DNA of 64,000 nucleotides. It comes from Bryobacterales bacterium. Lineage in GTDB: Bacteria; Acidobacteriota; Terriglobia; Bryobacterales; UBA6623. Every line of letters starts with the position of its first letter. Within the stretch, counting starts at the first letter, position 1. The notes under the pieces are model-generated. The model was not told the origin of the DNA. It ran no database searches and saw only the letters and a list, made by a program, of their open reading frames with translations. The DNA is taken from positions 62,001 to 126,000 of the forward strand of contig JAPPMC010000122.1 in NCBI GenBank assembly GCA_028819235.1, written 5' to 3'. The position numbers and the translations under genes were made by a program. Of the stretch, positions 1-10,558 are shown piece by piece.

Positions 1-923
1 CGAAGGAAGTGCTCAGCGAGCCTATCGAGAGCATCGTCGAGAACCTGAGCTTGCGGGAAGGGGCGCACTTGAAGAGGGCCGCAGTCCTTCTCTTCCATCC
101 GTCGCCCAGGCGCCTCATGCCAGATGCGTATGTCAAGATCGGCTACTTCCGAGGGGCAGAACTGCAGTTTCAGGACGAGATCGAGGGTGACCTGTTCGCA
201 CAAGTGGAGCGGGCCATGGATCTGCTGTACACGAAGTACACTCGCGGCCTCGTCTCCTACGACGGCGTCTACCGGGTCGAGACCTTCCCCGTGCCACGCG
301 GGGCGATGCGGGAGGCTCTGATCAACGCGGTCATCCACCGCGACTACGCAAGACCCACGACGATCCAGGTTCGGGTCCGCGACGACCGGATCGCGATCTG
401 GAACGCGGCCCACCTGAAGCCCGAATGGACGGCCGAACTGCAAGCGTCCGTAATGTCGTCGCAGCCGCACAACCCGCGCATTGCCTACACCTTCTTCCGG
501 GCGGGCATGATCGAGGCGTGGGGACGCGGTATACGTCAGATCGTGAACATCTGCCGTGAGGCGGGGAACCCGGCACCGACCTGGCGGCTCGACGTGGGCG
601 GGGACGGCCTGCGGATTCGGTTCCCGTTCTCGAGTGCCTATCAGGCTGCCGACTCCGCAGCGCGCGGGATCGCTGTGCCGAACACTCCCCCAGTTACTAC
701 CCAGAAGGGCAGCGCCATCTACCAGAAGACTACCCGGAAACCCACGCGCGACCGGATCGTGGATTGCCTCCGGGCCGAACCCGGCCTGACTCGGACGGCG
801 CTCGCCGTGCGGGTCGGGCTCTCGCCGGACGGCGTGAAGTATCACTTGCGGAACCTGAAGGCAGCCGGTGTTATCCGCCGAGTCGGCTCAGACCGGGCGG
901 GACATTGGGAGGTGATGCGGTGA
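1..923 (+). CDS. ATP-binding (HATPase-like) protein with C-terminal winged helix, 5' truncated by window edge
   Basis: The frame is open to the left edge; a GTG at position 9 is unlikely to be the true start, so the usual N-terminal AlbA_2-type (divergent AAA_4/Schlafen-like) DNA-binding domain probably lies outside the window. The visible part resembles the COG2865 family: a GHKL-like stretch with REALINAVIHRDY near residues 101-113 and EAWGRGIRQI near residue 168, then a C-terminal winged helix (about residues 245-304) with LSPDGVKYHLRNLKAAGVI. Members of this family are often encoded inside type I restriction-modification clusters, and the next gene is hsdR 28 bp downstream. The family role is probably regulatory; the function here is inferred from context only. 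Confidence 0.75.
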   Translation, partial: KEVLSEPIESIVENLSLREGAHLKRAAVLLFHPSPRRLMPDAYVKIGYFRGAELQFQDEIEGDLFAQVERAMDLLYTKYTRGLVSYDGVYRVETFPVPRGAMREALINAVIHRDYARPTTIQVRVRDDRIAIWNAAHLKPEWTAELQASVMSSQPHNPRIAYTFFRAGMIEAWGRGIRQIVNICREAGNPAPTWRLDVGGDGLRIRFPFSSAYQAADSAARGIAVPNTPPVTTQKGSAIYQKTTRKPTRDRIVDCLRAEPGLTRTALAVRVGLSPDGVKYHLRNLKAAGVIRRVGSDRAGHWEVMR

Positions 924-951
924 GATCGGCCGGGCAGGACGAGGCAGTGGA

Positions 952-3900
952 ATGACCGCTTTCGGCGAACGTGAGGTCAATGCCCAGCGGCGCGTCATCG
1001 CGCTATTCCAAGACCGGCTCGGCTACGAGTATCTTGGCGACTGGCGGGCCCGGGAGAACAACCAGAACATCGAGACCCACTGGCTTGAGAGGTTCCTTGC
1101 CCGCCAAGGCCATGCTGAGGTCTTGATAACCAAGGCGATCCACGAGTTCGAGAGGGCCGCCGCACTGGGCAGTGACAGAAACCTATACGAGGCCAACCGC
1201 GAGGCTTATCGTCTACTCCGCTACGGCGCGAGGGTTAAGCCCAGGGTGCAAGAGAACGCCCAGACCGTCCACCTGATCGACTGGGAGGATCCGGCCGCCA
1301 ACCACTTCGCCATCGCCGAGGAGGTGACCGTGGCGGGTAGGCATACCAAGCGGCCAGACCTAGTGCTATACATCAACGGGATCGCCATCGGCGTGATCGA
1401 ACTCAAGCGCTCGACGGTCTCAGTTGGCGAGGGAATCCGCCAGAACATCTCGAATCAGGAACCGCACTTCATTCGGCCTTTCTTCACCACCGTACAACTC
1501 GTAATGGCGGGCAACGACAGCCAGGGACTTCGCTACGGCGTGATCGGCACTCCCGAGAAGTACTGGCTCCGCTGGAAGGAGCCAGAGGGCAGCGGCGAGG
1601 CAAGCTTGCTGCTTCGCGAACTCGCCCACCTCTGCCAGCGCGAGCGCCTGCTTGAACTAATCCACGATTTCGTGGCGTACGACGCAGGCGTCAAGAAGAT
1701 CTGCCGTCATAACCAGTACTTTGGCGTGAAGGCGGGCCAGGCGCACGTGAAGAGGCGCGAGGGCGGGGTCATCTGGCACACACAGGGGAGCGGCAAGAGC
1801 CTCACGATGGTGTGGCTTGCGAGGTGGATTCGGGAGAACGTCCCGGGTGGCCGGGTCCTTGTGATCACCGATCGCACCGAACTCGACGAGCAGATCGAGA
1901 GAGTCTTCAAGGGGGTGGGGGAGGACATCCATAGGACCGCGAGCGGGGCGGATCTCGCCAAGGCGCTGGCCGATCCCGGAAAGTCGCTGGTCTGTTCGCT
2001 GGTGCAAAAGTTCGGCGCGTCCGGTGAAGGCGACATCGACCGATACGTGCGCGATCTCCGCTCCCAAGTGGCGGCCGACTTCCGCCCCAACGGCAACATC
2101 TACGTTTTCGTGGACGAGTGCCACCGAACGCAGTCCGGCAAGTTGCACCGTGCGATGAAGAAGCTCCTGCCCGAAGCCACTCTGATCGGATTCACGGGCA
2201 CGCCGCTCCTAAAGTCCAACAAGGCCCGGAGCATCGAGACGTTCGGCCCCTACATCCACACCTACAAGTACGACGAGGCGATACACGACAAGGTAGTGCT
2301 GGACCTGCGCTACGAGGCGCGCGACATCGACCAGCACCTGACGTCCGAGGCCAAGGTCGACCAGTGGTTTGATCTCAAGACCAAAGGACTCAGCGATCTC
2401 GCGCGGGCGCAACTCCGTCAACGCTGGGGCACGATGCGGAAGCTCACGAGCTCGCGGGACCGGATCAGCAAGATCGTGGATGACATCCTCATCGACATGG
2501 AGACGAAGGACCGGCTCAAAAGCGGACGGGGAAACGCCATGCTCGTCTCCGACAGCGTGTACGCAGCGTGCCGCTTCTTCCAAGCCTTCAGCGAGACGGA
2601 CCTGAAGGGGAAGTGCGCCATCGTCACCTCGTACCGTCCGGCCCCCGGCGACATCTCGGGGGAAGAGACGGGGGCGGGCGTGACCGAGGCGGTGCTCAAG
2701 CACAGCGTCTACCGGCGGATGCTCGCAGACCACTTCGGCGAGTCCGAAGATGAGGCCATGCACCGGGTCGAGGAGTTCGAGGAAAAGGTCAAGTGGCGGT
2801 TCGTGAACGATCCGGGGCAGATGAAGCTCTTGATCGTTGTGGACAAGTTGCTGACGGGCTTCGACGCGCCCCCGGCGACTTACCTGTACATCGACAAGAA
2901 AATGCGGGATCACGGTCTCTTCCAAGCGATCTGCCGCGTGAACCGCCTCGACGGTGAGGACAAGGAGTACGGCTGCGTTATTGACTACAAGGACCTGTTT
3001 CGCTCTTTGAAGGGCGCGATTAGCGACTACACCGGCGAAGCCTTCGACGGCTTCGACGAGGAGGATGTCAGGGGGCTCCTGAGCGACCGGCTCGAACGGG
3101 GTAGGGCGCGTCTGGAAGAGACCCGGGAGGCGGTCAAGGCGTTATGCGAACCCGTCGAGCCTGCCCGAGACCTTGCCGCATACCGCCATTACTTCTGCCA
3201 TGACGACCAGAGCGACAGCGCCGAGGCCGTCCGGCAGCTTGCCGCCAACGAACGCAAACGCCTCGACCTCTACCGCATGGTCGCGGCGTACGTGCGGGCC
3301 TACTCCAATCTGGCCAACGAGATGTTGGAAGCCGGATACACGGAGGCGGAGCGGCTCGTCATCCGGGACGAAGTCGCCGAATTCGAGAACATCCGGCGGG
3401 TGATCAAGCTGGCCAGCGGTGATGCCGTCGATCTCAAGGCCTTGGAGCCGGCGATGAGGCACCTGCTCGACAGCTACATCCGGGCCGACGAAAGCAGGGT
3501 CCTATCAAGTTTCGAGGACATGACGCTCATCGACCTGATCGTCGGGCGCGGCGAAGATGCGGTCGAGGCATTGCCCGACGGAATCAAGGGTGATCGCCGC
3601 GCCGTCGCCGAGACGATCGAGAACAACGTCCGCCGCCTGATCGTGGAAGAGATGGCGGTGAATCCGAAGTACTACGAGCGGATGTCGAAGCTCTTGGACG
3701 AGTTGATCCGCCAGCGGCGCGAAGAGGTCATCGCTTACGGGGAATACCTGAAGCAGGTGAGCGAACTGGCCAGAACTGTGAAGCAAGGCGACGGCGGCTC
3801 TTCGCGACCGCCGAGCATCGACACTGCGGCACTCAAGGCGTTATACGACAACCTGAACTTCGAGATCCTTGATGGGGCGGAGGGCGAACTTCAGTCCGAT

Positions 3901-4080
3901 TTCCCCGAATCTCTCGCGCTGGCCGTCGACCGGGCAGTCCGGCGCGCGAGGATGGCGGGGTGGCGCGACCACCCGATCAAAGAGCGACACATCAAGAGAG
4001 CGATCTCTCAAGCGCTCGACCGGTACAAGGGCCACACTGAGGAGGTCTTTGCCATTGTGAAGGCACAGCGTGAGTACTAA
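952..4080 (+). CDS. hsdR: Type I restriction endonuclease, HsdR (R) subunit
   Basis: A 1042-residue motor and nuclease subunit of a type I restriction enzyme, which translocates and cuts DNA lacking the host methylation pattern. Seen in order: an N-terminal PD-(D/E)xK nuclease with RPDLVLY (D136) and IELKR (E150, K152); Walker A TQGSGKS at 277-282; the DEAD-box variant DECH at 388-391; FTGTP near 414; and motif VI QAICRVNRLD near 661. The C-terminal third is helical, as expected for HsdM contact. Length is normal for HsdR. An ATG preceded by GAGGCAGTGGA supports the start. HsdM and HsdS are not in the window and would be expected upstream. The gene overlaps the start of the downstream metallopeptidase by 11 bp, implying co-translation. 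Confidence 0.95.
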   Translation: MTAFGEREVNAQRRVIALFQDRLGYEYLGDWRARENNQNIETHWLERFLARQGHAEVLITKAIHEFERAAALGSDRNLYEANREAYRLLRYGARVKPRVQENAQTVHLIDWEDPAANHFAIAEEVTVAGRHTKRPDLVLYINGIAIGVIELKRSTVSVGEGIRQNISNQEPHFIRPFFTTVQLVMAGNDSQGLRYGVIGTPEKYWLRWKEPEGSGEASLLLRELAHLCQRERLLELIHDFVAYDAGVKKICRHNQYFGVKAGQAHVKRREGGVIWHTQGSGKSLTMVWLARWIRENVPGGRVLVITDRTELDEQIERVFKGVGEDIHRTASGADLAKALADPGKSLVCSLVQKFGASGEGDIDRYVRDLRSQVAADFRPNGNIYVFVDECHRTQSGKLHRAMKKLLPEATLIGFTGTPLLKSNKARSIETFGPYIHTYKYDEAIHDKVVLDLRYEARDIDQHLTSEAKVDQWFDLKTKGLSDLARAQLRQRWGTMRKLTSSRDRISKIVDDILIDMETKDRLKSGRGNAMLVSDSVYAACRFFQAFSETDLKGKCAIVTSYRPAPGDISGEETGAGVTEAVLKHSVYRRMLADHFGESEDEAMHRVEEFEEKVKWRFVNDPGQMKLLIVVDKLLTGFDAPPATYLYIDKKMRDHGLFQAICRVNRLDGEDKEYGCVIDYKDLFRSLKGAISDYTGEAFDGFDEEDVRGLLSDRLERGRARLEETREAVKALCEPVEPARDLAAYRHYFCHDDQSDSAEAVRQLAANERKRLDLYRMVAAYVRAYSNLANEMLEAGYTEAERLVIRDEVAEFENIRRVIKLASGDAVDLKALEPAMRHLLDSYIRADESRVLSSFEDMTLIDLIVGRGEDAVEALPDGIKGDRRAVAETIENNVRRLIVEEMAVNPKYYERMSKLLDELIRQRREEVIAYGEYLKQVSELARTVKQGDGGSSRPPSIDTAALKALYDNLNFEILDGAEGELQSDFPESLALAVDRAVRRARMAGWRDHPIKERHIKRAISQALDRYKGHTEEVFAIVKAQREY

Positions 4081-4864
4081 CGCGGGCTTGGCTTCGCGGT
4101 CGACCAATGCGTCCTCCAAACGCGAAGCGACGAGCCGCCGCGTGACAGTAGGGGGCATCTCCGTCGAGGTCATCCGCAAGCGGATAAAGCATCTTCACTT
4201 AGGTGTTTATCCTCCCGAGGGGCGGGTCCGCGTGGCCGCGCCCATGCGTCTCGACGACGATGCGGTTCGGGCGGCGGTGATCTCGCGCTTGGCATGGATT
4301 CGGCGCAAGCGCGCCGAGTTCGCCGCGCAGCCCCGACAGTCGCGGCGCGAATTCGTCTCTGGCGAGAGCCACTACTTCGAGGGCCGACGTTACCGGATGG
4401 ACGTCGTCGAGTCAACCGGCCCGACCGGCGTTCGCCTGCGCAACAACGCTTGGATGGAGATGCGCGTGCGCCCCACGGCCGGGCGGGACGCCCGCGAGGC
4501 CATTCTGTACCGTTGGTACCGGGCTCGTCTCCGCGATCGCGTCCCCAAAATCCTCTCGGAGTGGGAACCCCGGATCGGCGTGCGGGTTGCCGACTGGCGC
4601 ATCCGCCGAATGAAGACGCGCTGGGGCACGTGCAACGTGGCGGCCCGCCGCATTTGGCTCAACGCCGAGCTAGCGAAGAAGCCCCTGCGGTGCCTCGAGT
4701 ACATTGTTGTCCACGAGATGGTCCACCTCGTCGAGCCGAGTCACAACGAGCGCTTCCGGGAGATCATGGACCGGGCGATGCCCGGCTGGCCGCTGCGCGC
4801 CGATGAGTTGAACAGCACGCACCTACCCGACGATGGCTGGGAGAAATCGCTGAACGGCGATTGA
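4070..4864 (+). CDS. YgjP/SprT-like zinc metallopeptidase (DUF45) of the restriction cluster
   Basis: A 264-residue protein of the M48-like YgjP family. The zinc site HEMVH is at 215-219 with a third histidine at 225 (VEPSHNERF), and the family hallmark RWGTCN...IWLN is at 184-198. The GTG start lies inside the last codons of hsdR, so the two genes are translationally coupled. YgjP-like peptidases are frequent passengers at the 3' end of type I restriction operons; whether they regulate or remove the endonuclease is not established. The first 23 residues are Ser/Thr-rich and may not be conserved; a later start near residue 24 is possible. Confidence 0.88.
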   Translation: MSTNAGLASRSTNASSKREATSRRVTVGGISVEVIRKRIKHLHLGVYPPEGRVRVAAPMRLDDDAVRAAVISRLAWIRRKRAEFAAQPRQSRREFVSGESHYFEGRRYRMDVVESTGPTGVRLRNNAWMEMRVRPTAGRDAREAILYRWYRARLRDRVPKILSEWEPRIGVRVADWRIRRMKTRWGTCNVAARRIWLNAELAKKPLRCLEYIVVHEMVHLVEPSHNERFREIMDRAMPGWPLRADELNSTHLPDDGWEKSLNGD

Positions 4865-4959: not shown

Positions 4960-6067
4960 CGGCCCGCTACGGACTGCGGTTCTCCGACGGGGCTGCCGAG
5001 CAGCGCTGACGGCGGCGATTCCGGCCCGGGTTCGTGGCTGGCCCTTTATGTGGAGTCTGGCTTGGACGAGTGCTTCCGAGGCAACCTCGCTAGTGAACGA
5101 TCGCCGGCCCGGCCCCAAGCTGGAATTGCGGTAATGAAACTACCTAAGTCAATGCCGGGTATTACTCCCGGCACAATGATCCGGCCAGCGCCTAGGGGGC
5201 ACCCCTGATGTGAAACTCCTATCCCAGCGAGGTGCGGGGGGCTTGCGGAGTTGCGCGGATGACAGCCTTAGGGAGGACAGACGTAGCCGAACTGCGATGA
5301 ACAGGCGGCGGCGAGGAAATGGAGTGCTAAACCAAGTCCGCACAGAGCGCTGTCGGTAGGTGGCGACTGCGTTGGCCACCGGCCCCTCTTGAGGTCCCGC
5401 ATGAAGGCGATCGGATGGCCGAACAGCACCACGGTGGCCTCGGTGGAAGGGCACAGTTCGGTTTCACTCTCAGAGCGGATTCGCACAGCATGCAACATCC
5501 GGCCGCGCCAACTGCAGATGCATTGGAACAATCCGCACCTGCCTCTGTCACTGTCAGCGTCGAGGTGCGGGAATTAGCCATGCTGCATGGCAGTGCAAAT
5601 ACCCGGGGCGTGCTGGATGTGCAGCTGGCCCAGCAAGTGCAGGAAGCGGTCCCAGAGTGAGGAGAGCGAGGCGGCGGAGAGCGTGATCCTGCGCCGGGTG
5701 AAGTCCACACGGATCTCGGACCGCTGGGGCATGTGGAGGTGGCGCTGCAGGCGAACCCACACGATCAGGTTACAGCCAAAGCGCTGGCCAGGAGGGGCTA
5801 GGCTGCCAACTGCCAAGACACGCGCGTTCCGAGTTCGCGGACGGGGACGGCGCCCGGGGCCAAGGTGATCAGCGCGCGGGCCTTGGCCCTTGTGAAAGCG
5901 TGGGGCGGACCTGCAATCGTAGCGGCGACGGGCGCTGGGACGGAAGTGTACTAGGGCCAATCCTGCTGGTGGGCCTTGCTGTGCTTGGAGATCTCGCCCG
6001 GAACAGGACTGGAAAAGGCTGAAACCGGGCGAGGTCCACGTCTTGCCGGTGGAAGAATAGGTGAGTA

Positions 6068-6114
6068 ATGGGCGTTCACGCCCCAACACCTTGCACTTCC
6101 GGGCGAACGCCCAT
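6068..6114. repeat. Perfect 10-bp inverted repeat, 27-nt spacer
   Basis: ATGGGCGTTC at 6068-6077 is the exact reverse complement of GAACGCCCAT at 6105-6114. It lies about 330 bp beyond the 3' end of the NACHT gene, where composition changes. It could be a stem-loop or the edge of a lost insertion element. Confidence 0.4.
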
Positions 6115-6448
6115 CGTCAGCCAGAGTATCTAGTGGACTCGTAGAGTGATCTGAGGATCAGCTGAAGTCGATCACCCTGCGTTGGAATTCGACGCCAGCC
6201 TAGACCAGTCAGTGCCGGAAGAGGCCGTTCCTGCAGTGAACGACAGAGATTCGATAAGGAATGAAAGGAACAGTTCTGACCTAGCTCGTCCCTCCGGCCA
6301 ACCGACATCGAAATCCCAACGTGTGCCGAAAAATACGACCTATTATCTAGCCATACATGTAAACGAAATCAACCGCTCAATCAGCTCGACATTCAAGGGG
6401 AACTCTTGGTTCCGTATGCTGTTGCCTTGACCTAAGACACAGCCTAAC

Positions 6449-8842
6449 CTACTTGTTTCTCCGTGGTCTAACCTTCTCCTGTCGCTCCCGATTCTTCACC
6501 ATTTTCTCTTTCGACTCCCTCTCTCTCACTCTCTTTTGTGCTCTCAGAGACTGCTGAACCAATTCGTTTATCGGTCGGTCATAGAGGTTCCTAAAGAACA
6601 CTTTACGGTCACTGCTCCCCGCCAAGATACGACGCACATACCTATCCTGTTTTCGCATGAGTTTAGTACGTTCTTTGATCTTCTTGCCCTCGTGCCGAAT
6701 TGCCAATTGGAGGTCAATAGGCAAACTGCTCCCAACTCGTTTTAGCATAAAGTCAAACGTCTCCTCGTTGTCTTTGCCGCCAATATCGATATATGCCACG
6801 TTAAGAAAGAACAACGCATACGCTTTCGTTTCGTCATCCAGTGAAGAATAGTGGATTCGCAAGGCAGCATCTTCAATGGCTCTCGTGAAAAACGAATATG
6901 AGTAGCCCTGCCTTATGAACAATTGAAGGAGATAGAGGAGACGCATCTTCGATAGGTTGCCAAATGACAACTCTGATCCTTGTGTGACAATCTTTCGATA
7001 GAGCTCTGCCGCAGTCACGGCTACATTCAACACGCCTTCCTCAATCACTCGGTATGGCGTGGTATATGCCGCCAACAAGTAGTCGGATACGTTAATAATT
7101 TTCATCCAATCTTCCACTTCTGACCGGGTTGGAATCTGGAATATTGTTTGCAAATCGTTGGGACAGTCCTTGCGAAGGCCGAGATAAAAGAAGAACGTAC
7201 TCGCCCAATAGACACTGAATACGCGAGAATCAACGACCAATTGTTTGTCTGCAATGAAGGACTTAGCATAGAGGAATTCTGTAAAGCTTCTGTGCTTGAA
7301 GCCCAGCATCCCGGAATCGCTAGCCACAAACACGATTTCACACCGATTGACCATCTTTTCAATTAGTGAGGCCACTTCGATTTCAAGGTTACGCTGATTA
7401 AGGTATTCGGTAAACACATCCTTCACCTCAGTCATCGGCATGAACAGCCGTCCACTGTCAATCATCTGTCGAGCCAGCCTCATCAGGATATTGTCAAGTG
7501 CTTGATATTCCTTTTGTGATTGTAGACCCTTCTTTTCATCCCACCTGCCGAGCATAAGTTCCGAATACTTCGAATATAGTTCCGTCATATTGGACGGTAT
7601 ATCTTGCTGATTTTCGTTCAGGAGGCGTGCCAGCAGGATCGCCGACATCGGACTCTTGGGCATATTGCGAAAAAGTGCAGACTTCTTGAGATCTTCTAAG
7701 ATGCGATCTCTGATGTTGATTTTCGTGCACAACTTAGCGATAAAGTCGAATGTGCGTCGCAGTGAGAGAGGTGGCAGTTCGCATCGGGCTACGTTTGGTC
7801 GCAAGACACCGCCTTGATCTACTCCCTTAAGGTACCGACTTGTCACCACGACGCGAATTCCGTGCTCCTTTGATGCTTGCATGAACATAGAATTGAGTTC
7901 TTCTGGTTGACTGTCGACATCCATTGGCAACTCATCAAACGCGTCGATTAGAACTAGGTATTCGCTATCTGGGCATGCCGTTCTGACTTCTCGAGACACT
8001 CGAGATTCGATGAGATTTCTCACCTTTCCAGAGTGTTGTTTCATGACTTCCGTGTAAGTCGTGAGTAGCGGAAGTACTTTCGTCTTCCGAAATACTTCGG
8101 GAAGGCTGGCTTCGGTAGTGAGCCGTCTGAGCAACTTCGATTTCCCGGAGCCAACACCGCCTTCAATGAGTATGCAGCGGTATGAGTCAGTGATGTGGTC
8201 GACATCAACTCTTCGTGGCTGCCGATAGTGCTTCGGCTTATATCGGTATTCGATGTCAGGAATATGATATAGATCTTGCCTAATGTAGAATGCCTCGTCG
8301 GACATCTGCAGTAGGCTCACGCTCTTATCCTGCTCTTCCGTTCTGACTCGAAGGTCTTGTAAATACTCTCCGACGACTATCGGCAAGCGCGACCAAGCGA
8401 GAGGTGTGTACCGATCGACCAACTGCTCAAGCATGGGTCCAGTGATGAACTCAATCTTCCGATTCCTGTATTTCTCATGGATCTTTTCCTTGGCACCCTG
8501 TGTAATGTGTTTCGTAGCGATTACCCAAATTTCTGTAAGTCTGATTTTCTTCTTACCACCCTCAACTAGCCTAGGTAGGCTGCATTCATCTATTTGGCGT
8601 TCAATGCCCTTAAAGTTCTGTAAGATCCTGCCTACCTTTGCGATGACACCAATATACTCGACAGTGCCGAAGTCTTCATGAGTTCGGCTGACGACGAAAT
8701 CAGCCCCTTTCTCGCTAGGACCGTGGCAGTACATCACGTGTCGAACTCTCGGCAGTTTCCCGAGGAGCGAATTCAATAGTGGATGGAGGTGTTCAACCTC
8801 CGATTTGATTGAATCCAGTTTTTCGTTTGCAATTCGTGCCAT
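6449..8842 (-). CDS. Nuclease-NACHT STAND NTPase, likely anti-phage defence protein
   Basis: A 797-residue protein. Residues 1-160 look like a restriction-endonuclease (Mrr-like) fold: EKGADFVV with D48, GVIAKVG with K69 (the usual E/Q two residues before K is an Ile), then RQIDEC near 82-87. A NACHT/STAND NTPase follows: Walker A GGVGSGKS at 228-235, Walker B LVLIDAFDE at 296-304, sensor VVVTSRY at 331-337. The rest (about 400-797) is helical and ends in a very basic, probably coiled tail. Bacterial NACHT proteins and Avs-type STAND nucleases are established phage sensors; specificity here is unknown. The gene is visibly A+T-richer (about 45-50% G+C on lines counted) than its surroundings, stands alone and is flanked by scars, which supports transfer. 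Confidence 0.85.
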   Translation of the reverse strand: MARIANEKLDSIKSEVEHLHPLLNSLLGKLPRVRHVMYCHGPSEKGADFVVSRTHEDFGTVEYIGVIAKVGRILQNFKGIERQIDECSLPRLVEGGKKKIRLTEIWVIATKHITQGAKEKIHEKYRNRKIEFITGPMLEQLVDRYTPLAWSRLPIVVGEYLQDLRVRTEEQDKSVSLLQMSDEAFYIRQDLYHIPDIEYRYKPKHYRQPRRVDVDHITDSYRCILIEGGVGSGKSKLLRRLTTEASLPEVFRKTKVLPLLTTYTEVMKQHSGKVRNLIESRVSREVRTACPDSEYLVLIDAFDELPMDVDSQPEELNSMFMQASKEHGIRVVVTSRYLKGVDQGGVLRPNVARCELPPLSLRRTFDFIAKLCTKINIRDRILEDLKKSALFRNMPKSPMSAILLARLLNENQQDIPSNMTELYSKYSELMLGRWDEKKGLQSQKEYQALDNILMRLARQMIDSGRLFMPMTEVKDVFTEYLNQRNLEIEVASLIEKMVNRCEIVFVASDSGMLGFKHRSFTEFLYAKSFIADKQLVVDSRVFSVYWASTFFFYLGLRKDCPNDLQTIFQIPTRSEVEDWMKIINVSDYLLAAYTTPYRVIEEGVLNVAVTAAELYRKIVTQGSELSFGNLSKMRLLYLLQLFIRQGYSYSFFTRAIEDAALRIHYSSLDDETKAYALFFLNVAYIDIGGKDNEETFDFMLKRVGSSLPIDLQLAIRHEGKKIKERTKLMRKQDRYVRRILAGSSDRKVFFRNLYDRPINELVQQSLRAQKRVRERESKEKMVKNRERQEKVRPRRNK

Positions 8843-9346: not shown

Positions 9347-9826
9347 ATGAATCCAAGGAGGCGGACAGAACTGACTGAGATCGGCGCGGACCTGTCGGCG
9401 TTCCCCAGCGAGAAGCACTTCGTGAGCTGTATGGGGCTGGCGCCACGCCACGCGGTTTCGGGAGGCAAGACGCTCGTGGGCAAGAAGCGTGGCCGCGGTA
9501 TGGGAGCGAAGCGCATCGCGAGTGTGCTGCGAATGGCGGCCACATCCCTGATCCGCTCCAGCAGTGCGCTCGGGGCGGCATCGCGACGCACGGCACGCCA
9601 CAAGGGAATGAAGGTGGCAACCTTCGCAACGGCACGCAAGCTCGCGATCCTCGTCTACCGCATGCTGATGTGCGGCCAGGACTGCGTTGACGAGGGCCAG
9701 GCGGCCTATGAAGAGCGCCACCTCCAGCGCACCTTGAGCTACGTCAACAGAACCGCCAAGAAGCTCGGCTATGTCGTCCTCCCAAAGGCCGCCTCTGCCG
9801 AAGCGATCCCCACATCGCCAGGCTGA
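9347..9826 (+). pseudogene. IS110-family transposase, C-terminal remnant
   Basis: Only the C-terminal Transposase_20 half remains (about 155 residues; complete IS110 transposases are about 300-450). Recognisable family features are EIGADLSAFPSEKHF, the GLAPRHAVSGGK helix-hairpin region, RMAATSLIRS, KLAILVYRML and DEGQAAYEERH. The DEDD catalytic N-terminal half is absent upstream, so the copy cannot transpose. It marks one edge of the low-G+C NACHT segment and may be a scar of the event that brought it in. Confidence 0.85.
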
Positions 9827-10183: not shown

Positions 10184-10558
10184 TCAGCCCTTGCGCTTCT
10201 TGAGGAGGGAGTCCACCGAGTACTCGCCAGATCCGTGCGCCCAAAGGTACAGGAAGACAAAGCAATATAGGGCCGCTAGCTCGCCCCTGTTCAGCAGGGG
10301 CCAGAAGCCGTCGCCCGCATGGCGCATGAAGTAGGCTGCGGCCATCAAACCTGAGGCCAGGAACGCTGCCCAGCGGGTCTGGAAGCCAACCAGCACGAAT
10401 GCGCCGCAGACCAGCTCGATCACCCCCGCGGTGGTCGGCAACGCCCCTTCCCTAGGGCCGACTCCTCCGAAGCCGAACAGCTTCTGGTAGCCGTGCGGCA
10501 TGATCATGAACCCGGTCACGATTCGAAGCAGTGCGTGCGTGCAAGATTGCCAGTTCAT
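10184..10558 (-). CDS. DoxX family integral membrane protein
   Basis: A 124-residue protein with four predicted membrane helices and the DoxX-family opening LLRIVTGFMIMPHGYQKLFG, followed by TTAGVIELVCGAFVLVG. The start has a good Shine-Dalgarno sequence (GGAGGAA, 5 nt upstream of ATG). DoxX-like proteins are small membrane proteins linked in some organisms to quinone or thiosulfate oxidation and redox stress; the exact role here is unknown. It lies 42 bp downstream of the TIM-barrel gene on the same strand and may share its transcript. Confidence 0.88.
   Translation of the reverse strand: MNWQSCTHALLRIVTGFMIMPHGYQKLFGFGGVGPREGALPTTAGVIELVCGAFVLVGFQTRWAAFLASGLMAAAYFMRHAGDGFWPLLNRGELAALYCFVFLYLWAHGSGEYSVDSLLKKRKG

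Follow-up and report, generated by a model that had tools for sequence, protein, structure and literature searches.

The closest described systems to the gene analyzed here are bNACHT25 and bNACHT32, which provide phage defense and degrade DNA in a manner that needs residue D48 (PMC12169576). In the case of bNACHT25, whose accession is WP_001702659.1, the mutant D48A is nuclease-dead and H506L is hyperactive, while the trigger is indirect and the host chaperone DnaJ is required (PMC12169576). Receptors of this kind are carried on prophages and plasmids. Two other groups are relevant for comparison, namely Avs4 and the remaining Avs (AVAST) STAND receptors, in which an Mrr-like nuclease also sits at the N-terminus of a STAND switch, and the Mrr-type restriction nucleases (Pfam Mrr_cat), which have the nuclease fold in common with the protein under study.

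The gene lies at positions 6449-8842 of a 64,000-nucleotide stretch of Bryobacterales DNA (the window, meaning this whole stretch) and is an intact minus-strand ORF of 797 codons, running from ATG to TAG with no internal stops. We read it, with a probability of roughly 0.85, as an antiphage receptor of the same kind as bNACHT25 and bNACHT32 that was gained by horizontal transfer, and whose activity, trigger and oligomerization we infer by analogy; we label it bNACHT clade 6 on the basis of PMC12169576 and of the small tree made here. The coordinates of the gene, its domains and its neighbors are given in Table 1.

Table 1. Features of the bNACHT25-type gene and its surroundings, in window coordinates.
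Feature	Position	Strand	Evidence or remark
ATP-binding (HTH) gene	9-923	+	Pfam/PADLOC
HsdR	952-4080	+	Pfam/PADLOC
YgjP-like peptidase	4070-4864	+	Pfam/PADLOC
bNACHT25-type gene, 797 aa	6449-8842	-	intact ORF; 33% identity to bNACHT25
Basic tail, residues 755-797	6452-6580	-	16 K/R and 7 D/E in 43 residues
NCH1 helical domain, residues 587-760	6563-7084	-	Pfam PF22728, E 3.6e-36, 124.9 bits against a cut-off of 27
NACHT NTPase with helical and winged-helix parts, about residues 210-535	7238-8215	-	outer limits approximate
PD-(D/E)XK nuclease domain, residues 1-150	8393-8842	-	domain model pLDDT 82, fold matches
D48 codon; K69 codon	8699-8701; 8636-8638	-	both invariant in nine homologues
IS110-type transposase remnant, right of the bNACHT25-type gene	9347-9826	+	Pfam Transposase_20, E 5.8e-8
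DoxX gene (right boundary of the variable island)	10184-10558	-	adjoins the CCA-adding enzyme gene in G204

Relationship to bNACHT25

BLASTP aligned the protein with E. coli bNACHT25 over 717 residues (33% identity, E 6e-138), in agreement with the suggestion of an earlier note on this DNA that the gene is related to known phage sensors. Full-length relatives with 34% and 31% identity came from conjugative plasmids, in Pseudomonas putida and Enterobacter kobei respectively, and E. coli genes followed; the homologues show 29-44% identity to our protein. Two loci carry the same protein: the E. coli gene at L008 is annotated WP_001702659.1 and L011 encodes the identical 752 residues. When the NACHT regions were used to build a tree, with eight other NACHT proteins as the contrast set, the eight NCH1 proteins including bNACHT25 formed one group (support 96/99), within which the protein studied here was placed beside an Anaerolineae homologue (99/96).

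The likeness to bNACHT25 and bNACHT32 extends to the one-gene arrangement and to the domain order, PD-(D/E)XK, NACHT and NCH1. In bNACHT25 the residues E44, D48, I67 and K69 are found under the same numbers as here, and K234 and the switch histidine H517 of our protein align with its K226 and H506. We therefore assign the gene with high confidence to the bNACHT25-type receptors, an already characterized kind; the view of the earlier note that this architecture might be little studied did not stand, as bNACHT25, with the same domain order, is a published antiphage protein. Several points speak against the assignment, namely the identity of only 33%, a host of a different lineage, the additional basic residues at the C-terminus (about 36 more than in bNACHT25) and a weak Pfam match of the N-terminal part to a family named inactive, which is considered below. 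A further difference from bNACHT25 and bNACHT32 is the location of the gene on a chromosomal island adjoining a type I restriction-modification (R-M) operon.

Domain organization and predicted fold

For the full-length protein, the AlphaFold2 model had a mean pLDDT of 77 and matched the structures of NLRP14, NOD2, NLRP3 and NLRC4, with Avs3 lower down, which bears out the proposed NACHT/STAND switch. Both nucleotide-binding motifs, Walker A (GGVGSGKS, 228-235) and Walker B (LVLIDAFDE, 296-304), are intact and aligned with those of bNACHT25, and K234, D300, D303, E304 and H517 are invariant among nine homologues, although the Pfam NACHT match (24.5 bits) falls slightly below its cut-off of 26.7. 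These motifs, as well as D48, K69 and the isoleucine two residues before K69, occupy exactly the positions previously reported for them. The very basic C-terminal end was likewise found as described (Table 1); homologues stop near residue 762, so that most of this tail has no counterpart in them.

Modeled separately, the N-terminal domain reached a pLDDT of 82 and a pTM of 0.79 and displayed a PD-(D/E)XK layout, with D48 immediately ahead of one strand and K69 closing the next. Its fold matched AF1548 (Z 10.7), the N-terminal domain of Avs4 (Z 10.1, rmsd 2.7 over 126 residues) and FokI (Z 9.3), in addition to AspBHI and MspJI; this layout, together with these matches, supports the nuclease fold that had been claimed for the region. 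Sequence searches of the PDB returned only NACHT/AAA matches, with no convincing relative for the nuclease or NCH1 parts. Two candidate names were discarded: DS8_antiphage, the sole NCBIfam match, scored 32 bits, far below its cut-off of 790, and the PADLOC match to mad8 corresponds to a local P-loop.

The nuclease active site

The weak match mentioned above is to PF22722 (NACHT-associated inactive Restriction Endonuclease 1, NA-iREase1) and covers residues 79-136. Together with the lack of E/Q two residues before K69, it could indicate that the N-terminal domain has a restriction-endonuclease fold without catalytic activity and serves only for DNA binding or as a decoy. We consider this highly improbable, given that the match scores 14.8 bits against a cut-off of 27, that D48 and K69 are invariant in the nine homologues, and that D48-dependent DNA degradation is known for bNACHT25, in which D48, I67 and K69 are identical.

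The comparison with Mrr-type nucleases concerns the same site: the Mrr_cat profile weakly matches several of the homologues, but the motif here is I/V-x-K instead of the usual E/Q-x-K, and the nuclease is fused to a NACHT switch. All nine NCH1 proteins compared, among them bNACHT25 (I67) and a viral-contig homologue, have Ile or Val at position 67; in a more distant Deinococcus relative this residue is Gln. Because the nine agree and DNA degradation by bNACHT25 depends on D48, Ile67 is a family trait compatible with activity, and not the modified nuclease site for which the earlier note had taken it. More generally, neither the Pfam label "inactive" nor an unusual residue in the ExK motif should be taken as a sign of lost activity among NCH1 nucleases.

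Two other residues, E44 and Q83, are invariant in 9/9 of the NCH1 homologues, and from the alignment they are candidates for the missing active-site ligand. A wider proposal would combine a rearranged active site in NCH1 nucleases, having Ile/Val for the E/Q of ExK and a different invariant residue, for instance E44 or Q83, as the substitute, with a non-DnaJ trigger conferred on the present protein by its basic tail; as a whole this appears improbable to us.

Proposed mode of action

By analogy with its relatives, the most likely function of the gene would be abortive infection, in which phage infection triggers an ATP-dependent oligomerization that switches on DNA degradation. The NACHT module would be closed in the resting state; upon infection, a change sensed via the C-terminal helical part would lead to ATP binding and oligomerization, the N-terminal PD-(D/E)XK domains would thereby be clustered, and the clustered domains would degrade DNA, stopping the infection at the cost of the cell. 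The putative oligomerization step is taken over from general knowledge of STAND proteins.

Regarding the trigger, we suppose with moderate confidence that it may be bNACHT25-like, that is DnaJ-linked; DnaJ is encoded in the host genome. A different and rather doubtful possibility, which concerns the trigger only and fits the family assignment too, is that this nuclease-armed NACHT receptor, in the manner of Avs proteins, recognizes a phage protein by direct contact and does not guard a host process linked to DnaJ. The resemblance of the N-terminal domain to that of Avs4, which senses the phage portal directly, would agree with direct binding, and so would the diverged C-terminal part with its extra basic tail; on the other hand, that C-terminal part is NCH1 and not of Avs type (the Avs4 chain has 1534 residues), and the nearest tested relative, bNACHT25, senses indirectly through DnaJ. 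The PADLOC scan gave no Avs-named rows for our protein, and equally none for bNACHT25. With 33% identity and the same catalytic and switch residues, the protein is a diverged natural variant that is suited to finding out which regions of bNACHT25 determine its trigger.

Composition and genomic context

The bNACHT25-type gene has a G+C content of 47.0%, compared with a mean of 64.3% (s.d. 1.3, minimum 61.2%) in the remaining 2.4-kb segments; the GC3 of the gene amounts to 54%, the neighboring genes having 76-82%. A deviation of about 13 s.d. excludes a chance fluctuation, and the foreign, A+T-richer composition noticed earlier is thus confirmed. The description of the gene as alone and bordered by scars held in part: the gene forms a unit by itself, but about 1.6 kb from it, in the same variable island, there is a complete type I R-M operon, and of the two borders the right one contains an IS110-type transposase remnant, with further partial copies elsewhere in the same genome, while the left one is a low-coding stretch (5200-6180).

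Such IS-derived and low-coding flanks, and the lack of a clear ribosome-binding site just upstream, would suit a decaying, unexpressed passenger stranded in the island by insertion-sequence traffic. We give very little credence to this explanation, since the frame is uninterrupted and full-length and all catalytic and switch motifs are intact at 29-44% identity to the homologues.

To place the island we compared the site in the ten other genomes of the same genus. The genes for the CCA-adding enzyme and a TIM-barrel protein are 420-480 bp apart in six of them (G199, G201, G202, G204, G205 and G206), and in G204, which was read in detail, DoxX occupies the gap. The two genes are separated by 2.1 kb in G203 and by about 4.2-4.4 kb, holding sulfatase and TPR-protein genes, in G207 and G208; in G200 the site is broken by contig ends. 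In the genome of the window the distance is approximately 19-19.7 kb, and the added stretch contains, in order, a HEPN-type gene, HsdM, HsdS, the ATP-binding gene, HsdR, the YgjP-like peptidase, the bNACHT25-type gene and the IS110 remnant. The R-M operon is completed by HsdM and HsdS just left of the window (window 9-4864 plus L014:11780-16101). The variable insertion site of the genus lies between the genes for the CCA-adding enzyme (L014:6920) and DoxX (window 10184) and is empty in at least six genomes. No tRNA genes that might serve as insertion sites were found in the region. In addition, a full-length close HsdR was not found among the ten other genomes.

Part of the island lies outside the window, on its left. 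The HEPN-type gene (L014:8759-9568, equivalent to G000:C161:54758-55567), about 6.4 kb from the window, is the second A+T-rich gene of the island and encodes 269 residues with no Pfam or PADLOC matches; the C-terminal part of its product is similar (35%) to HEPN-domain proteins encoded on Acinetobacter plasmids, and a Paraburkholderia phymatum replicon carries a relative with 50% identity. The interval L014:10300-11560 is non-coding and by eye looks like the remains of a group II intron; in the DNA left of the window, this interval included, Rfam detected no RNA family at its gathering thresholds.

Distribution of the family

Among the 396 genomes of the phylum searched, NCH1 was found only in that of the window, and it is missing from all ten other genomes of the genus. 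This absence and the variable site indicate that the gene is accessory and not an invariant core gene, in line with the presence/absence variation that had been predicted. The finding extends a characterized bacterial NLR type to a lineage in which it is rare; otherwise it is an ordinary case, another imported defense gene adjoining a restriction system.

Single-protein scans of genome contigs and viral contigs gave nothing, as the family is sparse, and alignment queries recovered five loci in genome contigs and eight in viral contigs. Outside the present genome, conjugative plasmids carry members of the family, an E. coli prophage harbors another, and in a viral contig one neighbors an integrase. 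Two of the viral-contig copies look interrupted: the long frame of L064 comprises the last part only, and that of L065 starts late.
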